Made by a program: the position numbers and the translations under genes. Below are positions 21,506-31,591 of a DNA stretch of 34,930 nt, in pieces (the stretch's first letter is position 1; each line of letters begins with the position of its first letter). The stretch is from positions 20,610 through 55,539 of the forward strand of contig MEKT01000002.1 in assembly GCA_001767435.1 (NCBI GenBank), read 5' to 3'. This DNA comes from Acidobacteria bacterium RIFCSPLOWO2_02_FULL_65_29. GTDB lineage: Bacteria; Acidobacteriota; Vicinamibacteria; Vicinamibacterales; CAVVIG01. Under the pieces are notes generated by a model that was not told where the DNA came from, made no database searches, and saw nothing but the letters and a program-made list of their open reading frames with translations.

Positions 21506-22393
21506 ATGGATGATCCGCTGTTCGATCGATGGATGACGGCGCTCGAGGCGCGCCATCTCGCGGAGCTCACATTTCCTGAAGTCTCGCGCGCGCTCCGCGC
21601 GCTGTCGTCCGCGTACGTCGAGCGCCGCGCGCGGCTGAGCCAGGGCGCCGCGTTGTCGGGCGCGGGGAAGCGAGCCGCCTTTGCGCTGTTCTACGGCCCA
21701 CTCCATTACCTGATCCTCCGGCACATCGCTTCGGCGCTCGGCGCGGGAGGCGGGCGCGCGTCGACCATCGTCGATCTCGGATGCGGCACCGGCTCGGCCG
21801 GTGCCGGATTCGCGATCGGGTCCGGCGCCGCTTCGTCCATCGCGGGGATCGACCGTCATGGGTGGGCGCTCGCCGAGGCCGCGCGGACGTACAGCGATTT
21901 CGGATTGAAGGGCAGGACCATCCGCGGCGACCTTGCGACTGTCGCGTGGCCGGGCGCCAGTGGTGGTCCGGTTGTAGTGCGGGACTTTAGTCCCGCCGGG
22001 AGTGGTGGTCCGGTTGTAGTGCGGGACTTTAGTCCCGCCGGGAGTCCGGCCCGGGGCGGCCCCGACAAGAACTCGTCCGTGTTAGTTGCCGCGTTCGCGC
22101 TCAACGAGCTCGGCGACGCGGCGCGCGCCGAAGCGATGTCGCGTCTGCTCGACCGCGCCGCCCGCGGCGACGCCGTGCTCGTCGTCGAGCCTCTCGCCGG
22201 ATTTGTCGCGCCGTGGTGGGCGACGTGGCGCCGGGCGTTCGAGGAGGCGGGCGGCCGTGCCGACGAGTGGCGTGCGAGGCTCGAGCTGCCCCCGATTGTC
22301 CAGAAGCTCGATCGCGCGGCCGGACTGGATCACCGGGAGCTGACCGCGCGCACGCTGTGGATCGGGGACGTGCGCTCAGAAATCAAGAATTAG
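21506..22393 (+). CDS. Class I SAM-dependent methyltransferase with in-frame repeat insertion
   Basis: A 295-residue Rossmann-fold methyltransferase. Motif I is IVDLGCGTGSAGAG (about residues 88-101), followed by an acidic turn (IAGIDRHGWAL). The motif IV-like strand is SSVLVAAFALNELGD, and the post-motif is DAVLVVEPLAG. The N-terminal helical part (LRALSSAYVERRARLSQG) faintly recalls Rsm22-type rRNA methyltransferases; I am not sure of this. Between the AdoMet-binding half and motif IV (residues about 152-180), a 14-residue unit SGGPVVVRDFSPAG occurs twice in a row. It is encoded by a duplicated 42-bp REP-like hairpin sequence. The ATG at 21506 lacks a Shine-Dalgarno site; an ATG at 21533 is an alternative. 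The TAG stop is the first three bases of a palindromic element. Confidence 0.82.
   Translation: MDDPLFDRWMTALEARHLAELTFPEVSRALRALSSAYVERRARLSQGAALSGAGKRAAFALFYGPLHYLILRHIASALGAGGGRASTIVDLGCGTGSAGAGFAIGSGAASSIAGIDRHGWALAEAARTYSDFGLKGRTIRGDLATVAWPGASGGPVVVRDFSPAGSGGPVVVRDFSPAGSPARGGPDKNSSVLVAAFALNELGDAARAEAMSRLLDRAARGDAVLVVEPLAGFVAPWWATWRRAFEEAGGRADEWRARLELPPIVQKLDRAAGLDHRELTARTLWIGDVRSEIKN
21959..22042. repeat. Tandem 42-bp REP-like unit inside the methyltransferase gene
   Basis: Two identical 42-bp copies (21959-22000, 22001-22042), each containing the hairpin GCGGGACT/AGTCCCGC (21979-21996 and 22021-22038). The same hairpin type occurs outside genes at 22416-22433, and a GCAGGACT variant at 5995-6012. 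Since 42 is a multiple of three, the frame is kept and 14 residues are duplicated. Confidence 0.95.
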
Positions 22394-22517
22394 AGCGCTT
22401 TTCATGCGCGTGTAGCGCGGGACTTCAGTCCCGCCTAGCGCTTCGCCTAGCGCCGGCCTATTGCTGGCCTATTGCAGGTCTAAAGACCTGCGCTACACGG
22501 AATCTAAAACGGCTCTA
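22391..22517. mobile_element. REPIN-like element with two inverted REP hairpins (127 bp)
   Basis: Outer ends are TAGAGCGCTTTT (22391-22402) and AAAACGGCTCTA (22506-22517), inverted with two mismatches. Inside, CGTGTAGCGC (22409-22418) and GCGCTACACG (22490-22499) form a perfect 10-bp inverted repeat. Two hairpins lie within: GCGGGACT/AGTCCCGC (22416-22433) and GCAGGTCT/AGACCTGC (22474-22491). The middle holds short direct repeats (CCTAGCG; GGCCTATTGC). Its first bases are the stop codon of the methyltransferase. It has no coding capacity. Confidence 0.82.
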
Positions 22518-22520
22518 GGA

Positions 22521-25056: not shown

Positions 25057-25401
25057 ATGGACGACTTTGATAACGGCGGTGCGGGGCTACCCGACGAGAT
25101 GACAACCGAGTTGCCCGATCTCGAAGTGGTTGAAGCCGAGGTCGAGATCGATCTCGAGGGCGCCGCCATGGCGCCGGCGGGCCGTAAGAGCGGCGGCGCG
25201 CGCGCCGGAAAGTCGGGCGGCGCGCACAAGGCGGCGGCGAAAGCGCCGGCGGCGAAGAAGAAAGCCAAGCCCGCCGCGAAGGCGAAAGCCAAGCCGGCCG
25301 CGAAGAAGAAGTCCAAGCCGGCGAAGAAGGCCGCGAAGAAGGCCGCGAAGAGGGCCCCGAAGAAGGCGTCGGCGAAGCGGAAAGCGGGACAGAAGAAATA
25401 G
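25057..25401 (+). CDS. Histone-H1-like Lys/Ala/Pro-rich protein with acidic N-terminus
   Basis: A 114-residue low-complexity protein. Residues 1-36 are acidic (DDFDNGGAGLPDEMTTELPDLEVVEAEVEIDLEG). The rest is built from KK/AK/KP steps (AAKKKAKPAAKAKAKPAAKK, then KAAKKAAKRAPKKASAKRKA), like bacterial H1-type (Hc1, AlgP) tails that bind DNA or RNA without a fixed fold. The acidic head could neutralise or regulate the tail; this is inference. AGGCGG precedes the ATG. The gene lies 12 bases before the DSD1-family gene on the same strand. Such tails evolve quickly, so homology beyond composition cannot be claimed. Confidence 0.7.
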   Translation: MDDFDNGGAGLPDEMTTELPDLEVVEAEVEIDLEGAAMAPAGRKSGGARAGKSGGAHKAAAKAPAAKKKAKPAAKAKAKPAAKKKSKPAKKAAKKAAKRAPKKASAKRKAGQKK

Positions 25402-25413
25402 TCGATTCACGCC

Positions 25414-26655
25414 ATGCAGCCGTCTTCGAAAGTGACGCGCCGTAACTTCTTGGTGACGTCGGGCGCCGGGGCCACCGCCGTGTGCCTCTCTCGAAAAACG
25501 AACGGCTACACCGGCACGGAAATGTCGGCCATGGCCGCCGCCGACAAGCTGACCGGGGTGTCCAAATGGGACCTCGATACCCCCGCCCTGTGCGTCGATC
25601 TGGACAAGTTCGAGCAGAACCTGCGGACGCTGCGAAACACGCTTGCCGGCACGGGCGTCGCCAGCCGTCCGCACGGGAAGACCCATAAGTGCCCCGCGAT
25701 CGCCAAGCTGCAGCTGGCGAGCGGGTCGATCGGCATCTGCGCCGCCAAGCTCAGCGAAGCCGAAGTGTTTGCGGCAAACGGGATCGACAAGATCCTGATG
25801 ACGACGTCCAACGTGTCGCCCGCCAAGATCCGGCGAGCGATGGCGCTCAGGAAGAAGAACCGGCACTTCATCCAGGCCGTGGACTACCCGAAGAACGCCC
25901 GCGATCTGAACGACGCGGCGAAAGAAGCGGGCATCGTCGCCGACGTCGTCGTGGATGTGGCGATTGGGACGCGCAGCGGGGTGCCCGCCGGCGACCAGGC
26001 CATCGCCCTGGCCGAGCTCGTCGACACGCTGCCACATCTCGAGTTGCGCGGTGTGATCAGCTATGACGGCGGCGCCCAGCACATCAAGGGATTCAAGACG
26101 CGACTCGAGCAAACGCTGGGTCGCTTCGCGGCGTCGGTGGAGACCTTCGAGCGTATGAAGCGATCGGGACTGAACACGGAGATCTTCAGCGGCGGCGGCA
26201 CCGGCACCTACAACATCCTGCCGAAAGCCGCCGGCGTGACCGACGTGCAGGTGGGCAGCTACATCTTCATGGACTGCCAATACGTCGAGATCGGCGGTGA
26301 ATCGAACGACGAGGTCTTCGACGATTTCGCTTCGTCGCTCACGGTCGTGACGACCGTTCTCAACACCTACTTCCCGGGCTCGCTCACAACCGATGCCGGC
26401 GCGAAGGCGTTGACGCTCAACAAGCCGGGTCCATGGGTGATTGGCGAGAAGGGCTTTGCCTACAACGCGGGCTCCGACGAGTTCGGCGTCATCCGTTACG
26501 AAAAGGCTGAACGATCCTACCAGGTGGGCGACAAGCTCGAGCTCGTCGTGCCACACTGCGATCCGGTCGTGAACGAGTACGACCAGATGTACGCGATCCG
26601 CAAAGATCGCGTCGAGTCCGTGTGGCCCGTCCTGGCACGCGGCCGATCACAGTAG
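25414..26655 (+). CDS. DSD1-family PLP-dependent enzyme (D-threonine aldolase / D-serine dehydratase-like), Tat signal
   Basis: A 413-residue fold-type III PLP enzyme. A twin-arginine signal (TRRNFLVTSGAGATAVCL) opens the protein, then LDTPALCVDLDKFEQNL begins the alanine-racemase-like barrel. The PLP lysine motif is SRPHGKTHKCPAIAKLQL (first Lys). The phosphate-binding region includes EIFSGGGTGTYN. The C-terminal barrel ends with VPHCDPVVNEYDQMY, where His and Cys are the metal ligands known in D-serine dehydratase and D-threonine aldolase. Which of these reactions it performs cannot be told. Export by Tat would place D-amino-acid turnover in the periplasm, which is unusual but seen in related environmental proteins. 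No good ribosome site precedes the ATG; coupling to the upstream gene is possible. Confidence 0.85.
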   Translation: MQPSSKVTRRNFLVTSGAGATAVCLSRKTNGYTGTEMSAMAAADKLTGVSKWDLDTPALCVDLDKFEQNLRTLRNTLAGTGVASRPHGKTHKCPAIAKLQLASGSIGICAAKLSEAEVFAANGIDKILMTTSNVSPAKIRRAMALRKKNRHFIQAVDYPKNARDLNDAAKEAGIVADVVVDVAIGTRSGVPAGDQAIALAELVDTLPHLELRGVISYDGGAQHIKGFKTRLEQTLGRFAASVETFERMKRSGLNTEIFSGGGTGTYNILPKAAGVTDVQVGSYIFMDCQYVEIGGESNDEVFDDFASSLTVVTTVLNTYFPGSLTTDAGAKALTLNKPGPWVIGEKGFAYNAGSDEFGVIRYEKAERSYQVGDKLELVVPHCDPVVNEYDQMYAIRKDRVESVWPVLARGRSQ

Positions 26656-26701
26656 GGTCGCCTTCTCGGCACGCCATGGTAAATCCCCGGCGGCGGTGGG
26701 T

Positions 26702-27613
26702 GTGAGGCTGCCGCGCGCGTTCCTGGCGCGTGCGCTCGGCGCAGCCGCGCTGTGCGCGCTTGTCCTGCCAGCGCCCGCTCTCGCCGATGAACGCCAGGCG
26801 CGAAGAGCAGCTTGCGACATTACCGTAGGGCGGGTCTTTCAGACCCGCCTCCCGCCGGGTCCGAAAGGACCCGGCCAACGTCCCGTAATGTCGCAACGCG
26901 CTCTACAGACGGAAACCCCTGTGGACCATGTCGTCGAGCCGGCGGCAGCGCCGTCTGTCGGGGTCGTGCTCCGCGAGGTGCCCCGCGACGTGTGGCGGTT
27001 CGTCTCGCTGGACACGGCCGTGGTGCTGGCGGGCGGAGGCGGCGTGGCGCTCGTCGCGCACGTGTGGGACGACGATCTTGTCAGGGAGATCGGGGAAAAC
27101 CCTGAGTTGAACAGCGCCTTTGAACCCGGTAGCCAGTACGGCGCGTTCGGCGTGATGCTCGGGGGTTCGTTCGCCGTCTATGGCGTCGGGCGTGTGGCCG
27201 GGCACCGGCACATGGCCGTGGTCGGCGCCGATTTGGTCCGCGGCCAGATCGTGTCGCAGGTCTGGGTCCAGGCGCTCAAGTTCACCGCGCTGCGGGAACG
27301 TCCGGACCACAGCAATCAGCGGTCGTTTCCATCGGGCCACGCCGCGGGGGCGTTTGCCACGGCGGCGGTGCTGACCCGCCACTACGGCTGGAAGGCGGCG
27401 ATCCCCGCATATCTCGGCGCGACCTACATCGCGGCGGCGCGCGTGCACGACAACAAGCACTATCTGAGCGACGTGACGTTTGGCGCGGCGCTGGGTCTCG
27501 CCGGAGCGCGAACGGTGATGCTGAAGGCTGGTCGTTACGGCTTTCAGGTGGCGCCGGCTCCCGTGCCGAGGGGGATCGCGGTGCGCGCGACGCTGGTTCC
27601 GGCGTTGCGATGA
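26702..27613 (+). CDS. Secreted PAP2-family phosphatase carrying an in-frame mobile element
   Basis: A protein of about 303 residues with a signal peptide (LARALGAAALCALVLPAPALAD) and a PAP2/acid phosphatase domain. The three catalytic motifs are visible: KFTALRERPD, FPSGHAAGAF and ARVHDNKHYLSDV. They form the vanadium-haloperoxidase-like active site that removes phosphate from lipids or small esters. Between signal peptide and domain, about 33 residues (AACDITVGRVFQTRLPPGPK and on to MSQRAL) are encoded by a palindromic mobile element (26804-26904). The start is GTG at 26702; GTG at 26696 is equally possible. It starts about 46 bases after the DSD1-family gene and may be co-transcribed with it. 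Confidence 0.85.
   Translation: MRLPRAFLARALGAAALCALVLPAPALADERQARRAACDITVGRVFQTRLPPGPKGPGQRPVMSQRALQTETPVDHVVEPAAAPSVGVVLREVPRDVWRFVSLDTAVVLAGGGGVALVAHVWDDDLVREIGENPELNSAFEPGSQYGAFGVMLGGSFAVYGVGRVAGHRHMAVVGADLVRGQIVSQVWVQALKFTALRERPDHSNQRSFPSGHAAGAFATAAVLTRHYGWKAAIPAYLGATYIAAARVHDNKHYLSDVTFGAALGLAGARTVMLKAGRYGFQVAPAPVPRGIAVRATLVPALR
26804..26904 (+). mobile_element. REPIN/MITE-like element, copy 2, inside the PAP2 gene
   Basis: The core 26812-26896 is 85 bp, bounded by the perfect 12-bp inverted repeat TTGCGACATTAC / GTAATGTCGCAA. Symmetric AGAGC (26804-26808) and GCTCT (26900-26904) extend the ends to 101 bp. Internal hairpins are GCGGGTCT/AGACCCGC (26830-26848) and CCGGGTCC-GAAA-GGACCCGG (26855-26874). 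It is about 93% identical to the 6402-6486 copy in inverse orientation. No clear target-site duplication is seen. Confidence 0.88.
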
Positions 27614-27712: not shown

Positions 27713-28582
27713 ATGTCAAACCATCTGAAGTGGATTCGATACGTCGGAACTCCGGCGCTGGTGGCTGCCGCCCTGGCGGTGCTGCCAATGGCTGCGATGT
27801 CGCGAGGCGTGGCCGTCGCCGAATGGCGCCAGCAGCCTGCGGCCAGCGAGGGCACACAGCCGGCGGTCAGCGCGAAGACCTGGGTGGGAAAGGCGGCCGA
27901 GATTGAGGAATACATCAGGACCGCCCCCATCGCCCGCACGACCGACGTGCCGCGAGGCGTGACCAAACCGCGCCGCGCCTATTTTGCGCCCGGCGGCCTC
28001 GTCGAATCGATGGCCTGGAAGCCGCTGAAGCCCGGCATGGTCAACGGCTTCTTCGAAAGCTACAAGTCGGAGATCGCGGCGTACGAAATCGACAAACTGC
28101 TCGAGCTCGACATGGTGCCGCCCAAAGTGGAGCGGCGCATCAGCGGCGATCTGGGTGTGGCCGTCATGTGGGTCGTTCCCACGAAGAGCTTCGCGGATCT
28201 GCGCGGCGTGCCAACGCCGCCGCCGGCGCAGGCCGAGTCGTGGAACCGGCAGCTCGTCCAGGCCAAGATGTTCCAGAACCTGGTTGGCGACCTCGATCCG
28301 AACCTCGGGAACTGGCTCGTCGATCCGATGTGGAATCTGATCCTGGTCGATCACTCCCGTGCCCTGACGCGCACCGAGAGGCTCATACACGAGATGCAGA
28401 GGATCGATGCCGACCTGTGGACGCGCATGAAGGCGCTCACGGCAGAGACGCTGACGAAGGCGGCCGGCACGTGGATCGGGAAGGGCGAGGTCGGCGCGAT
28501 CCTCGAGCGCCGGGAGAAGATGCAGGCGCAGATCGACAAGCTCGTCCGCTCCAGCAGCGAGGCCCGGGTGTTTATCCGCTAG
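27713..28582 (+). CDS. Exported protein with a HipA/PI3K/FAM20-like kinase signature
   Basis: About 289 residues, not recognised as a named family. An N-terminal hydrophobic stretch (VGTPALVAAALAVLPMAAM) suggests export or anchoring. The domain reads like an atypical kinase. FESYKSEIAAYEIDKLLELDMVPPKVERRISGDLGVAVMW resembles the helix-C and hinge part of HipA/PI3K-type kinases. AKMFQNLVGDLDPNLGNWLVDPMWNLILVDHSRAL resembles the catalytic DxxxGN loop followed by an xDHS metal-binding (DFG-equivalent) motif. The Lys of YFAPGGLVESMAWKPLK could contact ATP. Kinase activity is an inference from this pattern. The start at ATG 27713 has GGAG six bases upstream; ATG 27692 is possible. Neighbours are other exported enzymes, so its substrate may be extracytoplasmic. 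Confidence 0.65.
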   Translation: MSNHLKWIRYVGTPALVAAALAVLPMAAMSRGVAVAEWRQQPAASEGTQPAVSAKTWVGKAAEIEEYIRTAPIARTTDVPRGVTKPRRAYFAPGGLVESMAWKPLKPGMVNGFFESYKSEIAAYEIDKLLELDMVPPKVERRISGDLGVAVMWVVPTKSFADLRGVPTPPPAQAESWNRQLVQAKMFQNLVGDLDPNLGNWLVDPMWNLILVDHSRALTRTERLIHEMQRIDADLWTRMKALTAETLTKAAGTWIGKGEVGAILERREKMQAQIDKLVRSSSEARVFIR

Positions 28583-28669: not shown

Positions 28670-30280
28670 ATGGCGAAGAAATTGTGGGTATTACTGGCGC
28701 TGGCATTACTTCTGGGCGGCCGAACACTCGCTCAACAATTCCCGCCGGGCTTCGTCGACCCCGCGCCGCTGCTGGCGGCCGCTGCCAAGGAAATCGGCGA
28801 GGCGAGCTTCAGGTGCGTCACCTTTTCGGGCGCCGGCTACAGCGCTGCCGTCGGCCAGACCTTCGAACATGCGGTCAACATCGACTGGCCGCGGATCGAT
28901 GGGATGGCCAACTACACACGGACCATCAACTGGGAAACCGGGACGAGCAAGGAAACCTTCGATCGCAAGCCCGGACTGAATCCCGCGTCCTGGAAGTACG
29001 GCCTTGGCTGGGTCGGCGGGACGCCGACACAGAAGAACCTGCGGCAGACGCACATCACCAACGGCAAGTATTCATGGTCCATCGACGGCGACGGGCCCCC
29101 GGTGGCCGTTCCCCCGGAAGATGCCGAGCGTTACCAGTTGGACTTGTGGATGAACCCCCCGGGCTTCATCAAGGCCGCTCGCATGCCCGGCGCAAATCCC
29201 AGGGCCTTCTGGCGGTGGGAACAGATCGAGAAGGGCCGGGATGGCAACGTCGTGAGCCCGGAAAAGATGCACGTCGTCGCCATCACCGTGCTCGGCAAGT
29301 ACCGCATGGACGCCACGATCAACCCGCAGAATCAGATCCAGCGAATCAAGACGACGGTGTCGGAAAACGCCCTGGGCGATTTCAATATCGAGCACGAGTC
29401 CACCGACCAAATGAGCGTCGGCAACGTGAAGTGGCCGATCGCCTGGCACTCGCACCAGGGATGGGACGACAACTGGCAGTTCTACGGGAAGAGCACCGGC
29501 CACAATGCGTACGGCGGCAAGTTTCCAAAGGTGGAACCGAACGTGTGCGCCGATCCCGTTCCGGTGCCCCCGTCAGTGATGCAGGCGCAGTTCCCGAACA
29601 CGGTCACCGTCGACAAACTGGGAAACGGTATCTACATGCTGGGTGGCGGACCGGCGAACAGCTACATGATCGAGTTCAATGATTTCGTCGCCGTGTTCGA
29701 AGCACCCGTAAGCGAGGAGCGCAGCCTGGCGGTCATCGAGCAGATCGCCAAGCTGGCGCCCAACAAGCCGATCCGTTGGCTCATCAGCTCCCATCCGCAC
29801 TTCGATCACATCGGGGGAATCCGGACCTACAACCACATCGGCGCGACGATCATCATGCACATGAAGAATCTCGAATTCATGAATTCCGACGTCCTCACCT
29901 ACATCCCGAGGACCGTGAAGCCCGACATCACTGCGCTGTGGCCGCCGACCGAGTTGGCGGAGGGCTATAACTACGAGGCCATTCAGGAAAATTTCGTCAT
30001 CACGGACAACAGCCGGATTCTGCGGGTCTATTACGTGCAACCGCTGCAGCACGTCGCCGGCATGTTGATGGCGTACTTGCCAACCGAGCGCATCGCGTTT
30101 CAGGCGGACTTGTTCAACACGCATGAACCGCATACAGGGCCGCCGAAACCGGCGATGAACAGTTTCTGGAACCAGGTGAGACGGATGAAGCTGGACGTGA
30201 CGACGATCGCGCCTGTGCACGGTCGTCCCGTTCCATGGTCTGATTTTGCCAAGGCCATGGGCGCCGCGCCAAATCTCTGA
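28670..30280 (+). CDS. Secreted metallo-beta-lactamase-fold hydrolase with a large N-terminal domain
   Basis: A 536-residue protein with a signal peptide (LWVLLALALLLGGRTLAQQ). Residues about 20-315 form an unrecognised domain with many Trp and Tyr. The metallo-beta-lactamase fold begins near NTVTVDKLGNGIYMLGGGPANSYMIE. Its metal ligands are HPHFDH (HxHxDH), a later His in QPLQHVAGMLMAY, Asp in IAFQADLFNTHEP and His in APVHGRPV. The set for a two-metal site is complete, so it should be an active hydrolase with unknown substrate. A good ribosome site (GGGAGGAACC) precedes the ATG. It lies 87 bases after the kinase-like gene. Confidence 0.85.
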   Translation: MAKKLWVLLALALLLGGRTLAQQFPPGFVDPAPLLAAAAKEIGEASFRCVTFSGAGYSAAVGQTFEHAVNIDWPRIDGMANYTRTINWETGTSKETFDRKPGLNPASWKYGLGWVGGTPTQKNLRQTHITNGKYSWSIDGDGPPVAVPPEDAERYQLDLWMNPPGFIKAARMPGANPRAFWRWEQIEKGRDGNVVSPEKMHVVAITVLGKYRMDATINPQNQIQRIKTTVSENALGDFNIEHESTDQMSVGNVKWPIAWHSHQGWDDNWQFYGKSTGHNAYGGKFPKVEPNVCADPVPVPPSVMQAQFPNTVTVDKLGNGIYMLGGGPANSYMIEFNDFVAVFEAPVSEERSLAVIEQIAKLAPNKPIRWLISSHPHFDHIGGIRTYNHIGATIIMHMKNLEFMNSDVLTYIPRTVKPDITALWPPTELAEGYNYEAIQENFVITDNSRILRVYYVQPLQHVAGMLMAYLPTERIAFQADLFNTHEPHTGPPKPAMNSFWNQVRRMKLDVTTIAPVHGRPVPWSDFAKAMGAAPNL

Positions 30281-30427: not shown

Positions 30428-31591
30428 ATGAGAGGACGGATTTTCGCTGGAGTCGCGCTCTTCGCTTCGACGCTGGCGCTCTCTCAAGCGGAGGCGCCAG
30501 CCGCGGGGCCGCAAACATCGGCCGCGGCTCCGCAATCACCAGCCACCGGCGGCGGAAGAGGCGGCGGGCGAGGCGGCGGCATACAGGGCAACGTGGGCGC
30601 GGAGCCGTGCGCCCTTTCGCCCATCTGCGCCTGGGGAAGAGAGCGCAACCTCATTTCTCATGAAGTGCGCACACCCGATTTGGGTTTCACCCACGCATAC
30701 CCGTTTGCCTTGCCCGAGGGCGGGGGCGGTGTCTCGGCGGTCGCCATCAATTCGAAAGGACATCTGTGGGCATTTCAGCGCAACGCCGCCGGAAAACCGC
30801 AGGTGTTCGAGTTCGACCAGAATCAGAAGCTCGTCCGCACGATCGGCGAAGACGTCATCGGCCATCAAAACAAGGCGCACGGCATGGCGATCGACGCCGA
30901 GGACAACGTCTGGATCTGCGACGAGAGCGGCGCCACCGTGCAGAAGCTCAGTCCCGAGGGCAAGCTCCTGCTGACAATCGGCGTGAGGGGACAACGGGGG
31001 GATTGGGATGAGGCCAAGGGACAACGGCTGCTCTGGGAGCCGCTGCACCTCGCCTTCGCGCCGAATGGCGATGTCTATATCGGTATGGGCCATGCGAACG
31101 AGAGTCCCAACGATACCGGCAAGTCTCCGACCAACAACATCGGCGCCGCGCGCGTGCTGCACCTCGACAAGAACGGCAAGTTCATCAATCAATGGGTCGG
31201 CAACCATGCCGGGCAAGGACATTTCAGCATGGTCCATGGGATTGCCATCAATCCCGACAACGGCAACGTGTACATCGCCGACCGTGAGGAATATCGCCTT
31301 GTCGTCTATGACGCGAAGGGTAAGTTCATCAAGACGATTCAGATGAGAAACCTCACGTGCGGCCTCTATGTGGACCCGCACAAACAGCTCTGGCTGGCGA
31401 CCGGTCAGGATGGCCAGATCTTCAAGATAGATTGGGAGGGCCGCGTACTCGGTGCGATGGGTAACGGACCGGGCAGAGGGGAGGGCCAGTTCGCCGAATC
31501 CAACTACATGGCCATGGATTCGCAGGGCAACCTGTATACAGGCGACACGAGCGTTGGCCGGATCACGAAAATGGTTGCGCCGAAGAAGTGA
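30428..31591 (+). CDS. Secreted NHL-repeat / six-bladed beta-propeller protein
   Basis: A 387-residue exported protein. A signal peptide (IFAGVALFASTLALSQAEA) is followed by a low-complexity linker (GGGRGGGRGGGIQGN). About six NHL/PAL-type blades follow, each with the pattern G-[MIL]-A-[IV]-[DN] followed by G-N/H-[VL]-[YW]. Examples are VSAVAINSKGHLWAF, AHGMAIDAEDNVWICD, PLHLAFAPNGDVYIGMG, VHGIAINPDNGNVYIAD and NYMAMDSQGNLYTGD. Propellers of this type resemble peptidyl-alpha-hydroxyglycine lyase but are mostly binding or scaffold proteins; no activity is assigned. Cys residues in AEPCALSPICAWG may form a disulfide. It lies about 150 bases after the metallo-beta-lactamase gene. Confidence 0.85.
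   Translation: MRGRIFAGVALFASTLALSQAEAPAAGPQTSAAAPQSPATGGGRGGGRGGGIQGNVGAEPCALSPICAWGRERNLISHEVRTPDLGFTHAYPFALPEGGGGVSAVAINSKGHLWAFQRNAAGKPQVFEFDQNQKLVRTIGEDVIGHQNKAHGMAIDAEDNVWICDESGATVQKLSPEGKLLLTIGVRGQRGDWDEAKGQRLLWEPLHLAFAPNGDVYIGMGHANESPNDTGKSPTNNIGAARVLHLDKNGKFINQWVGNHAGQGHFSMVHGIAINPDNGNVYIADREEYRLVVYDAKGKFIKTIQMRNLTCGLYVDPHKQLWLATGQDGQIFKIDWEGRVLGAMGNGPGRGEGQFAESNYMAMDSQGNLYTGDTSVGRITKMVAPKK

Follow-up and report, generated by a model that had tools for sequence, protein, structure and literature searches.

To our knowledge, kinases acting outside the bacterial cytoplasm are hardly known. The window analyzed here, a 34,930-nucleotide stretch of the Acidobacteria bacterium RIFCSPLOWO2_02_FULL_65_29 genome, encodes a 289-amino-acid protein in which the original prediction saw a possible signal-bearing atypical kinase of the HipA, PI3K-like or FAM20 type. 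The locus raises three questions: (i) whether this protein is an exported kinase, (ii) to which kinases it is related, and (iii) with which enzymes it might act.

The window gene and its product

The open reading frame extends from an ATG at 27713 to a stop codon ending at 28582, with a GGAG Shine-Dalgarno-like site ~8 bases 5' of the ATG. Its translation contains the motifs that first drew attention to it, YKSEIAAYEI (residues 117-126) and GDLDPNLGN (residues 192-200; ...VGDLDPNLGNWLVDPMWNLILVDHS). The motifs are not chance resemblances, as their residues are kept across a set of 31 sequences of homologues (24-58% identity) that was picked independently of the motif. The features of the gene, and the one neighbor to which we return below, are as follows.

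26696-27613, plus strand: PAP2-superfamily phosphatase, candidate partner (Pfam PAP2, E = 2.6e-13)
27713-28582, plus strand: coding sequence of the predicted exported FAM20-like kinase, 289 aa (open reading frame and translation; family by profile and model)
27713-27820, plus strand: predicted signal peptide spanning residues 1 to ~36, with probable cleavage following AVA (hydrophobicity and c-region heuristic)
28019-28021, plus strand: Lys103, the putative strand beta-3 lysine (counterpart of hydra Fam20 Lys133 in the alignments)
28055-28057, plus strand: Glu115, the putative FAM20-specific ion-pair acid (aligned with Asp152 of hydra Fam20 and Glu213 of C. elegans Fam20)
28061-28099, plus strand: helix C, residues 117-129, YKSEIAAYEIDKL (DSSP on the model; Glu120 at the canonical position)
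28295-28312, plus strand: putative catalytic loop D195-P-N-L-G-N200 (D195 lines up with the catalytic base of hydra Fam20, Asp299)
28349-28360, plus strand: D213-H-S-R216, putative metal-binding (DFG-equivalent) Asp and Arg (aligns with LDNGR/LDNAK of FAM20)

A bacterial family resembling FAM20 kinases

Taken alone, the window protein has no Pfam or NCBIfam match, and a first single-sequence search of genome contigs found no homologue. Against the PDB it gave nothing significant; of two chance-level hits, the second (E = 0.65) was to hydra Fam20 and fell on the EIAAYEIDKLL helix. Whole-genome search identified five family copies in the window's own genome, window kinase included, and family matches were found in 23 of 60 genomes searched. 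Copies occur in 60 of 297 genomes sampled from the phylum, with up to seven in each. Among the named genomes listed, which are the top 80 among 210 matches to a single motif, the family is almost restricted to Acidobacteriota (with Aminicenantes) and a second phylum, so a wider taxonomic spread is possible. The record of the second phylum is titled Latescibacterota, and 3 of its 16 genomes have the family. Cyanobacteria (L054) and Acidimicrobiia (L064) were rejected as hosts: these titles look wrong because the hits share coordinates with genomes of the window's own order, and both are probably mislabeled assemblies. L110 is a third family record titled as another phylum. One weak family match, a hypothetical protein in Brevibacterium, was found in the plasmid collection.

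Within alignment A1, which comprises 31 family members, weak matches were detected to NCBIfam SCO1664 (29 of 31, best E = 8e-14), Pfam PI3_PI4_kinase (26 of 31) and KDO kinase (16 of 31). In every case with a score seen, the family falls below the Pfam and NCBIfam cut-offs, yet it is present in about one-fifth of the sampled genomes of a major soil phylum. Judged by sequence, this is a large, unannotated, multi-copy bacterial family, mostly of Acidobacteriota. No description of FAM20-like kinases in Acidobacteriota was found in the open-access literature, preprints aside.

Significant sequence matches to FAM20 emerged only with the family profile. By sequence, the A1 profile matches PDB entries for FAM20A (1.6e-9), FAM20C (7e-7) and FAM20B-type enzymes (8e-7), then C. 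elegans Fam20 (1e-4) and type II PI4 kinase (PI4K-II; 2e-4); the match spans helix C and the catalytic loop and, for FAM20A, also the C-terminal helices. The AlphaFold (AF2) model of the window kinase is bilobal (pLDDT 89, pTM 0.81). With this model, the top 27 Foldseek chains are all FAM20 (E = 2e-9 to 3e-7), followed by PI4K-II. VIA-align ranks FAM20 at Z 20.8 to 18.6, PI4K-II at 18.1 to 17.1, CtkA at 15.6 and HipT, CotH and HipA at 12-13, and its 50 best rows are all kinase-fold entries; a family missing from the list was not counted as evidence. The best match, at Z 20.8 over 234 residues with an rmsd of 4.3, is hydra Fam20, a monomeric, FAM20B-type enzyme. The window kinase is thus predicted by its model to have a protein-kinase-like fold with the bilobal core, and of the three folds originally proposed, all of them kinase folds, FAM20 is the best solved match.

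The active-site residues agree with this assignment. D195, N200, D213 and R216 are invariant in all 31 sequences of A1, the set cited here because the motif was used to collect a larger set of 96 sequences, which is biased for these four positions. Lys103 is kept in the window protein and its clade; its position is Lys in 23 of the 31 A1 sequences and in 51 of the 96, and Gln in a separate subfamily. Of the Lys, two Asp and Asn on which the original prediction drew, both Asp and the Asn proved invariant and the Lys conserved within the window's subfamily. Neither of the two outcomes that would have refuted the prediction, a fold lacking the bilobal core or variable Asp and Asn residues, was observed. 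Zhang et al. 2018 (PMC5865150) report that the partner of this Lys in FAM20 is an acidic residue located five positions ahead of the canonical Glu, as in the hydra pair Asp152-Lys133. Counting along the profile alignment places Lys133 over Lys103 and Asp152 over Glu115. All 96 sequences carry an acidic residue (Glu or Asp) at position 115, and position 120, that of the canonical Glu, is variable.

Among the 96 sequences, residues 103, 115 and 120 are Lys/Glu/Glu in 46, Lys or Arg/Asp/Glu in 11 and Gln/Asp/Asn in 31; five more Gln variants bring the replacement of Lys by Gln to 36 of 96, mostly with Asn for Glu120, so not all family members need be active kinases. In the Gln-type subfamily the catalytic and metal residues are kept; its members may be pseudokinases or work by a variant mechanism. 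FAM20A is a pseudokinase by loss of the acid, and it activates FAM20C. At L040, L043 and L045 a Gln-type gene adjoins an A-type gene of the window's clade; by analogy this pairing is a lead to a relationship like that of FAM20A and FAM20C. The window's clade reads DPN in the catalytic loop, and most of the family reads DRN (DRNxxN).

With animal FAM20A, FAM20B and FAM20C the family shares predicted export, a two-lobed fold, the best structural and sequence match, and details of the active site. Helix C of the window kinase, YKSEIAAYEIDKL, matches NAEIAAFHLDRLL of FAM20 in the alignments; the pattern EIAAYELDKLL...PP.V.R, the acid five residues before the canonical Glu, the D...D-x-x-R/K-x-F motif and the alignable C-terminal helices are common to both. 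Three positions past the metal Asp, the family has Arg like FAM20C, and hydra FAM20 has Lys. The differences are as clear. Identity between FAM20 and the window kinase is 14-18% in structural alignments. The four conserved disulfides of FAM20 (PMC5865150) are absent: the window protein has no cysteines and its homologues have 0-4, without the FAM20 cysteine pattern. The FAM20 loop is DRHHYE, with Glu where most kinases have Asn, whereas the family has DxNxxN with the Asn invariant. Unlike FAM20, the family is bacterial and linked to a PPP phosphatase. FAM20 kinases act on secreted proteins or on proteoglycan xylose. At the Pfam Fam20C gathering score of 26.8 the window protein has no match, and members with listed scores reach at most 18.1. 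We classify the family from its sequences as FAM20-like and not as a member of FAM20, because it has the FAM20-specific acid but neither the DRHHYE loop nor the disulfides.

Other known families compare as follows. SCO1664 (NCBIfam TIGR03843, unknown function) scores at best 36 bits in the window's own genome and 54 at L085, against a cut-off of 172.4. PI4K-II and the PI3/PI4 kinases share the D-x-x-x-x-N catalytic loop, I-D-x-x-x-x-F and a Z of ~18; at the PF00454 gathering score of 27.1 the window protein has no match and the best listed score is 26.8 (L011), and the best member match, given without a score, has E = 1.2e-7. Unlike PI4K-II, the family is predicted to be exported, and a lipid is a candidate substrate for it. 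HipA (Z 12.3) lies well below FAM20, and matches to PF20613 HipA_2 are below the cut-off where scores are listed. The CotH spore-coat kinases of Bacillus are likewise bacterial, atypical and distantly related to FAM20, but reach a Z of only 12.7, and a link to a PPP phosphatase is not known for them. No CotH family or PDB sequence match appeared in the window-protein or family-profile searches. CotH phosphorylates spore-coat proteins, and the source of its ATP is likewise unanswered (PMC7821199).

Export, phosphatases and predicted mechanism

Under a heuristic that looks for n-, h- and c-regions, the N-terminus of the window kinase (MSNHLKWIRYVGTPALVAAALAVLPMAAMSRGVAVA/E) is consistent with a Sec signal peptide. 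The heuristic is passed by 58 of 79 family open reading frames (73%) and 16 of 22 PPP open reading frames, figures that misplaced starts depress, and by 175 of 605 other genes at the same loci (29%). The predicted signal peptide and its enrichment in homologues bear out the description of a signal-bearing protein and support predicted Sec-type export of the window kinase.

The strongest partner family-wide is a secreted calcineurin-like (PPP) phosphatase, which is absent from the window. A long-ORF scan identified the kinase domain C-terminal to this phosphatase in 18 open reading frames, 16 in the tree set and two in the second phylum, where the fusions occupy 2 of 3 kinase-bearing genomes. 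A separate PPP gene lies within 700 bases of 35 more kinases. Across genomes, both genes occur in 48, the kinase only in 10, PPP only in 2 and neither in 237 (PPP in 48 of 58 kinase genomes; Fisher p = 8e-43, with species counted as independent). Kinase-linked genes served as seeds for the PPP profile, ~7 of them from genomes of the 297 sample, and the profile threshold of 1e-50 was chosen to separate a weaker group; at 1e-20, PPP-only genomes number 11 and p is 1e-34. Within 600 bases of a kinase lie 33 of 57 PPP places, a few genes being counted as two places. The nearest solved relatives of the partner are the Shewanella PPP phosphatases 1v73 (E = 2.4e-52), 2z72 and 2zbm, the latter two deposited as protein-tyrosine-phosphatase. 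The motifs GDxHG, GDxxDRG, GNHE, HGG and GH have most columns invariant in alignment A2 (n = 16). As in the Shewanella PPP-type tyrosine phosphatase, the PPP motifs are intact in nearly all; here the enzyme is linked or fused to a kinase.

The fusion label requires at least five changes on the tree, at least three of them on well-supported branches, so the kinase-PPP fusion appears to have arisen more than once or been lost repeatedly. The window's own genome has a single PPP of this kind, flanked by two paralogues on contig C204, and no PPP gene was found within 700 bases of kinases in the window's own clade (10 tree rows). Phosphatase adjacency and fusion suggest reversible phosphorylation outside the cytoplasm. 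The fusion also offers a handle on function, as one polypeptide (L085 or L124, for example) carries both opposing predicted activities. In genome G029 a kinase-PPP-kinase cluster occupies 6.864-6.867 Mb of the single contig. L120 and L121 encode kinase fusions with degraded PPP motifs, that is, pseudophosphatase-kinase fusions. L127, L132 and L135 (same phylum, family code f52) have two or three tandem kinases near a PPP gene or fusion.

Beside the window kinase, the PAP2 gene is co-directional and ends 99 bases upstream. The neighbors are as first described, a phosphatase (PAP2), a hydrolase (a metallo-beta-lactamase-fold protein, 28670-30280) and a propeller (NHL, 30428-31591), and the suggestion that they are substrates or partners is more weakly supported than the kinase reading. 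PAP2 homologues adjoin Gln-type family kinases at L034/L075, L097 and L101; the beta-lactamase-fold and NHL proteins were rejected as partners, being absent beside other family kinases bar one weak NHL match. With no adjacent PPP in the window's clade and PAP2 homologues beside Gln-type kinases, PAP2 is the best local candidate partner.

We consider it probable that the product of the window gene is an atypical, exported kinase belonging to a FAM20-like family; a phosphatase would reverse its action. The kinase would be exported via Sec and its mature domain would be two-lobed. Nucleotide would be bound via Lys103 and Glu115, the FAM20-type ion pair, with Glu120 at the canonical position, and Mg or Mn held by Asn200 and Asp213. 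Asp195 would serve as catalytic base in phosphorylating a hydroxyl group of a protein or glycan located outside the cytoplasm. Family-wide, the fused or neighboring secreted PPP phosphatase would reverse the reaction; beside the window copy, the PAP2 phosphatase may do so. We infer that the kinase is active, that it transfers phosphate from a nucleotide, rather than another group, to an extracytoplasmic substrate, and that the partner phosphatase acts on its product.

Several observations weigh against this reading: we know of no ATP pool in the periplasm, no PPP gene lies within 700 bases in the window's clade, whose loop has DPN in place of the DRN of most members, the Gln-for-Lys subfamily is large, and the FAM20 disulfides and DRHHYE loop are missing. 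Were the N-terminal hydrophobic stretch a membrane anchor, the kinase domain would work in the cytoplasm; we regard this as highly improbable. The signal-peptide call is heuristic and the cleavage predicted, but the n/h/c pattern with its AVA site is typical, hydrophobicity reveals no further segment of transmembrane strength, the same pattern recurs at the N-termini of family members and of the PPP fusions, and a Sec signal in the usual orientation puts the C-terminal domain outside. Kinase folds can also support other chemistry, as in AMPylation by SelO and glutamylation by SidJ, or regulate another enzyme as FAM20A does FAM20C. These precedents, the lack of known periplasmic ATP and the missing Lys in 36 of 96 sequences would fit such a role here. 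It nevertheless seems unlikely for the window protein. The Lys, the acid of FAM20 type, the Asn and the two Asp are all retained in it and throughout its clade, and recurrent PPP phosphatase fusions speak for phosphate esters.

A small-molecule, glycan or lipid kinase, exported likewise and resembling FAM20B acting on xylose or PI4K-II, would differ from the preferred reading in substrate only. We hold it possible, if somewhat doubtful. The model is closest in structure to the hydra enzyme, which is monomeric and of FAM20B type, and next to PI4K-II; the weak KDO kinase matches of 16 of 31 members point the same way, and the PAP2 class next to the window gene often acts on lipid phosphates. Against it, the partner phosphatase of the family has its nearest relative in a PPP-type protein-tyrosine phosphatase, and three positions past the metal Asp stands the Arg of FAM20C, not the Lys of hydra FAM20. 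Protein and glycan substrates are both possible, given a structural match of glycan-kinase type and a partner resembling protein phosphatases.

Atypical secretory kinases are known as a kind; what appears to be new is a phosphatase-coupled bacterial family as large as this one. Taken more broadly, exported FAM20-like kinases paired or fused with exported PPP phosphatases, possibly with the Lys-less subfamily as FAM20A-like pseudokinase activators, may constitute dedicated reversible phosphorylation outside the bacterial cytoplasm, possibly by prokaryotic kin of the animal secretory kinases; our confidence in this wider view is evenly balanced. The family raises two testable questions: what donates phosphate beyond the inner membrane, and from where the animal FAM20 kinases derive.

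Other genes of the window and of kinase loci

A second exported family of ~545 aa (FYPDDP...) adjoins family kinases and lies beside a PAP2 gene in three loci. Members are found at L137:3773-5569 (own genome, C204), L075:3289-4947, L097, L101 and L089. Its WLNHVDAKxxNSL...LLDFGS looks kinase-like; a four-sequence AF2 model has a pLDDT of 41. Also in the window's own genome (C97), the 916-aa protein at L138:7619-10369 starts, by eye, like a Hanks-type Ser/Thr kinase and sits between two FAM20-like paralogues in the same direction.

Within the window, 25414-26655 encodes a PLP enzyme resembling D-threonine aldolase or 3-hydroxyaspartate aldolase, possibly exported given a weak twin-arginine match, and 25057-25401 a small protein with a Lys/Ala/Pro-rich, histone H1-like tail. 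At 21506-22393 and 22213-22518, an in-frame repeat, GGPVVVRDFSPAGS, occurs inside a methyltransferase-like open reading frame. The string AGLKTCATR/AGLKPCATS is common to the window and the flank of L007, which suggests a dispersed repeat.
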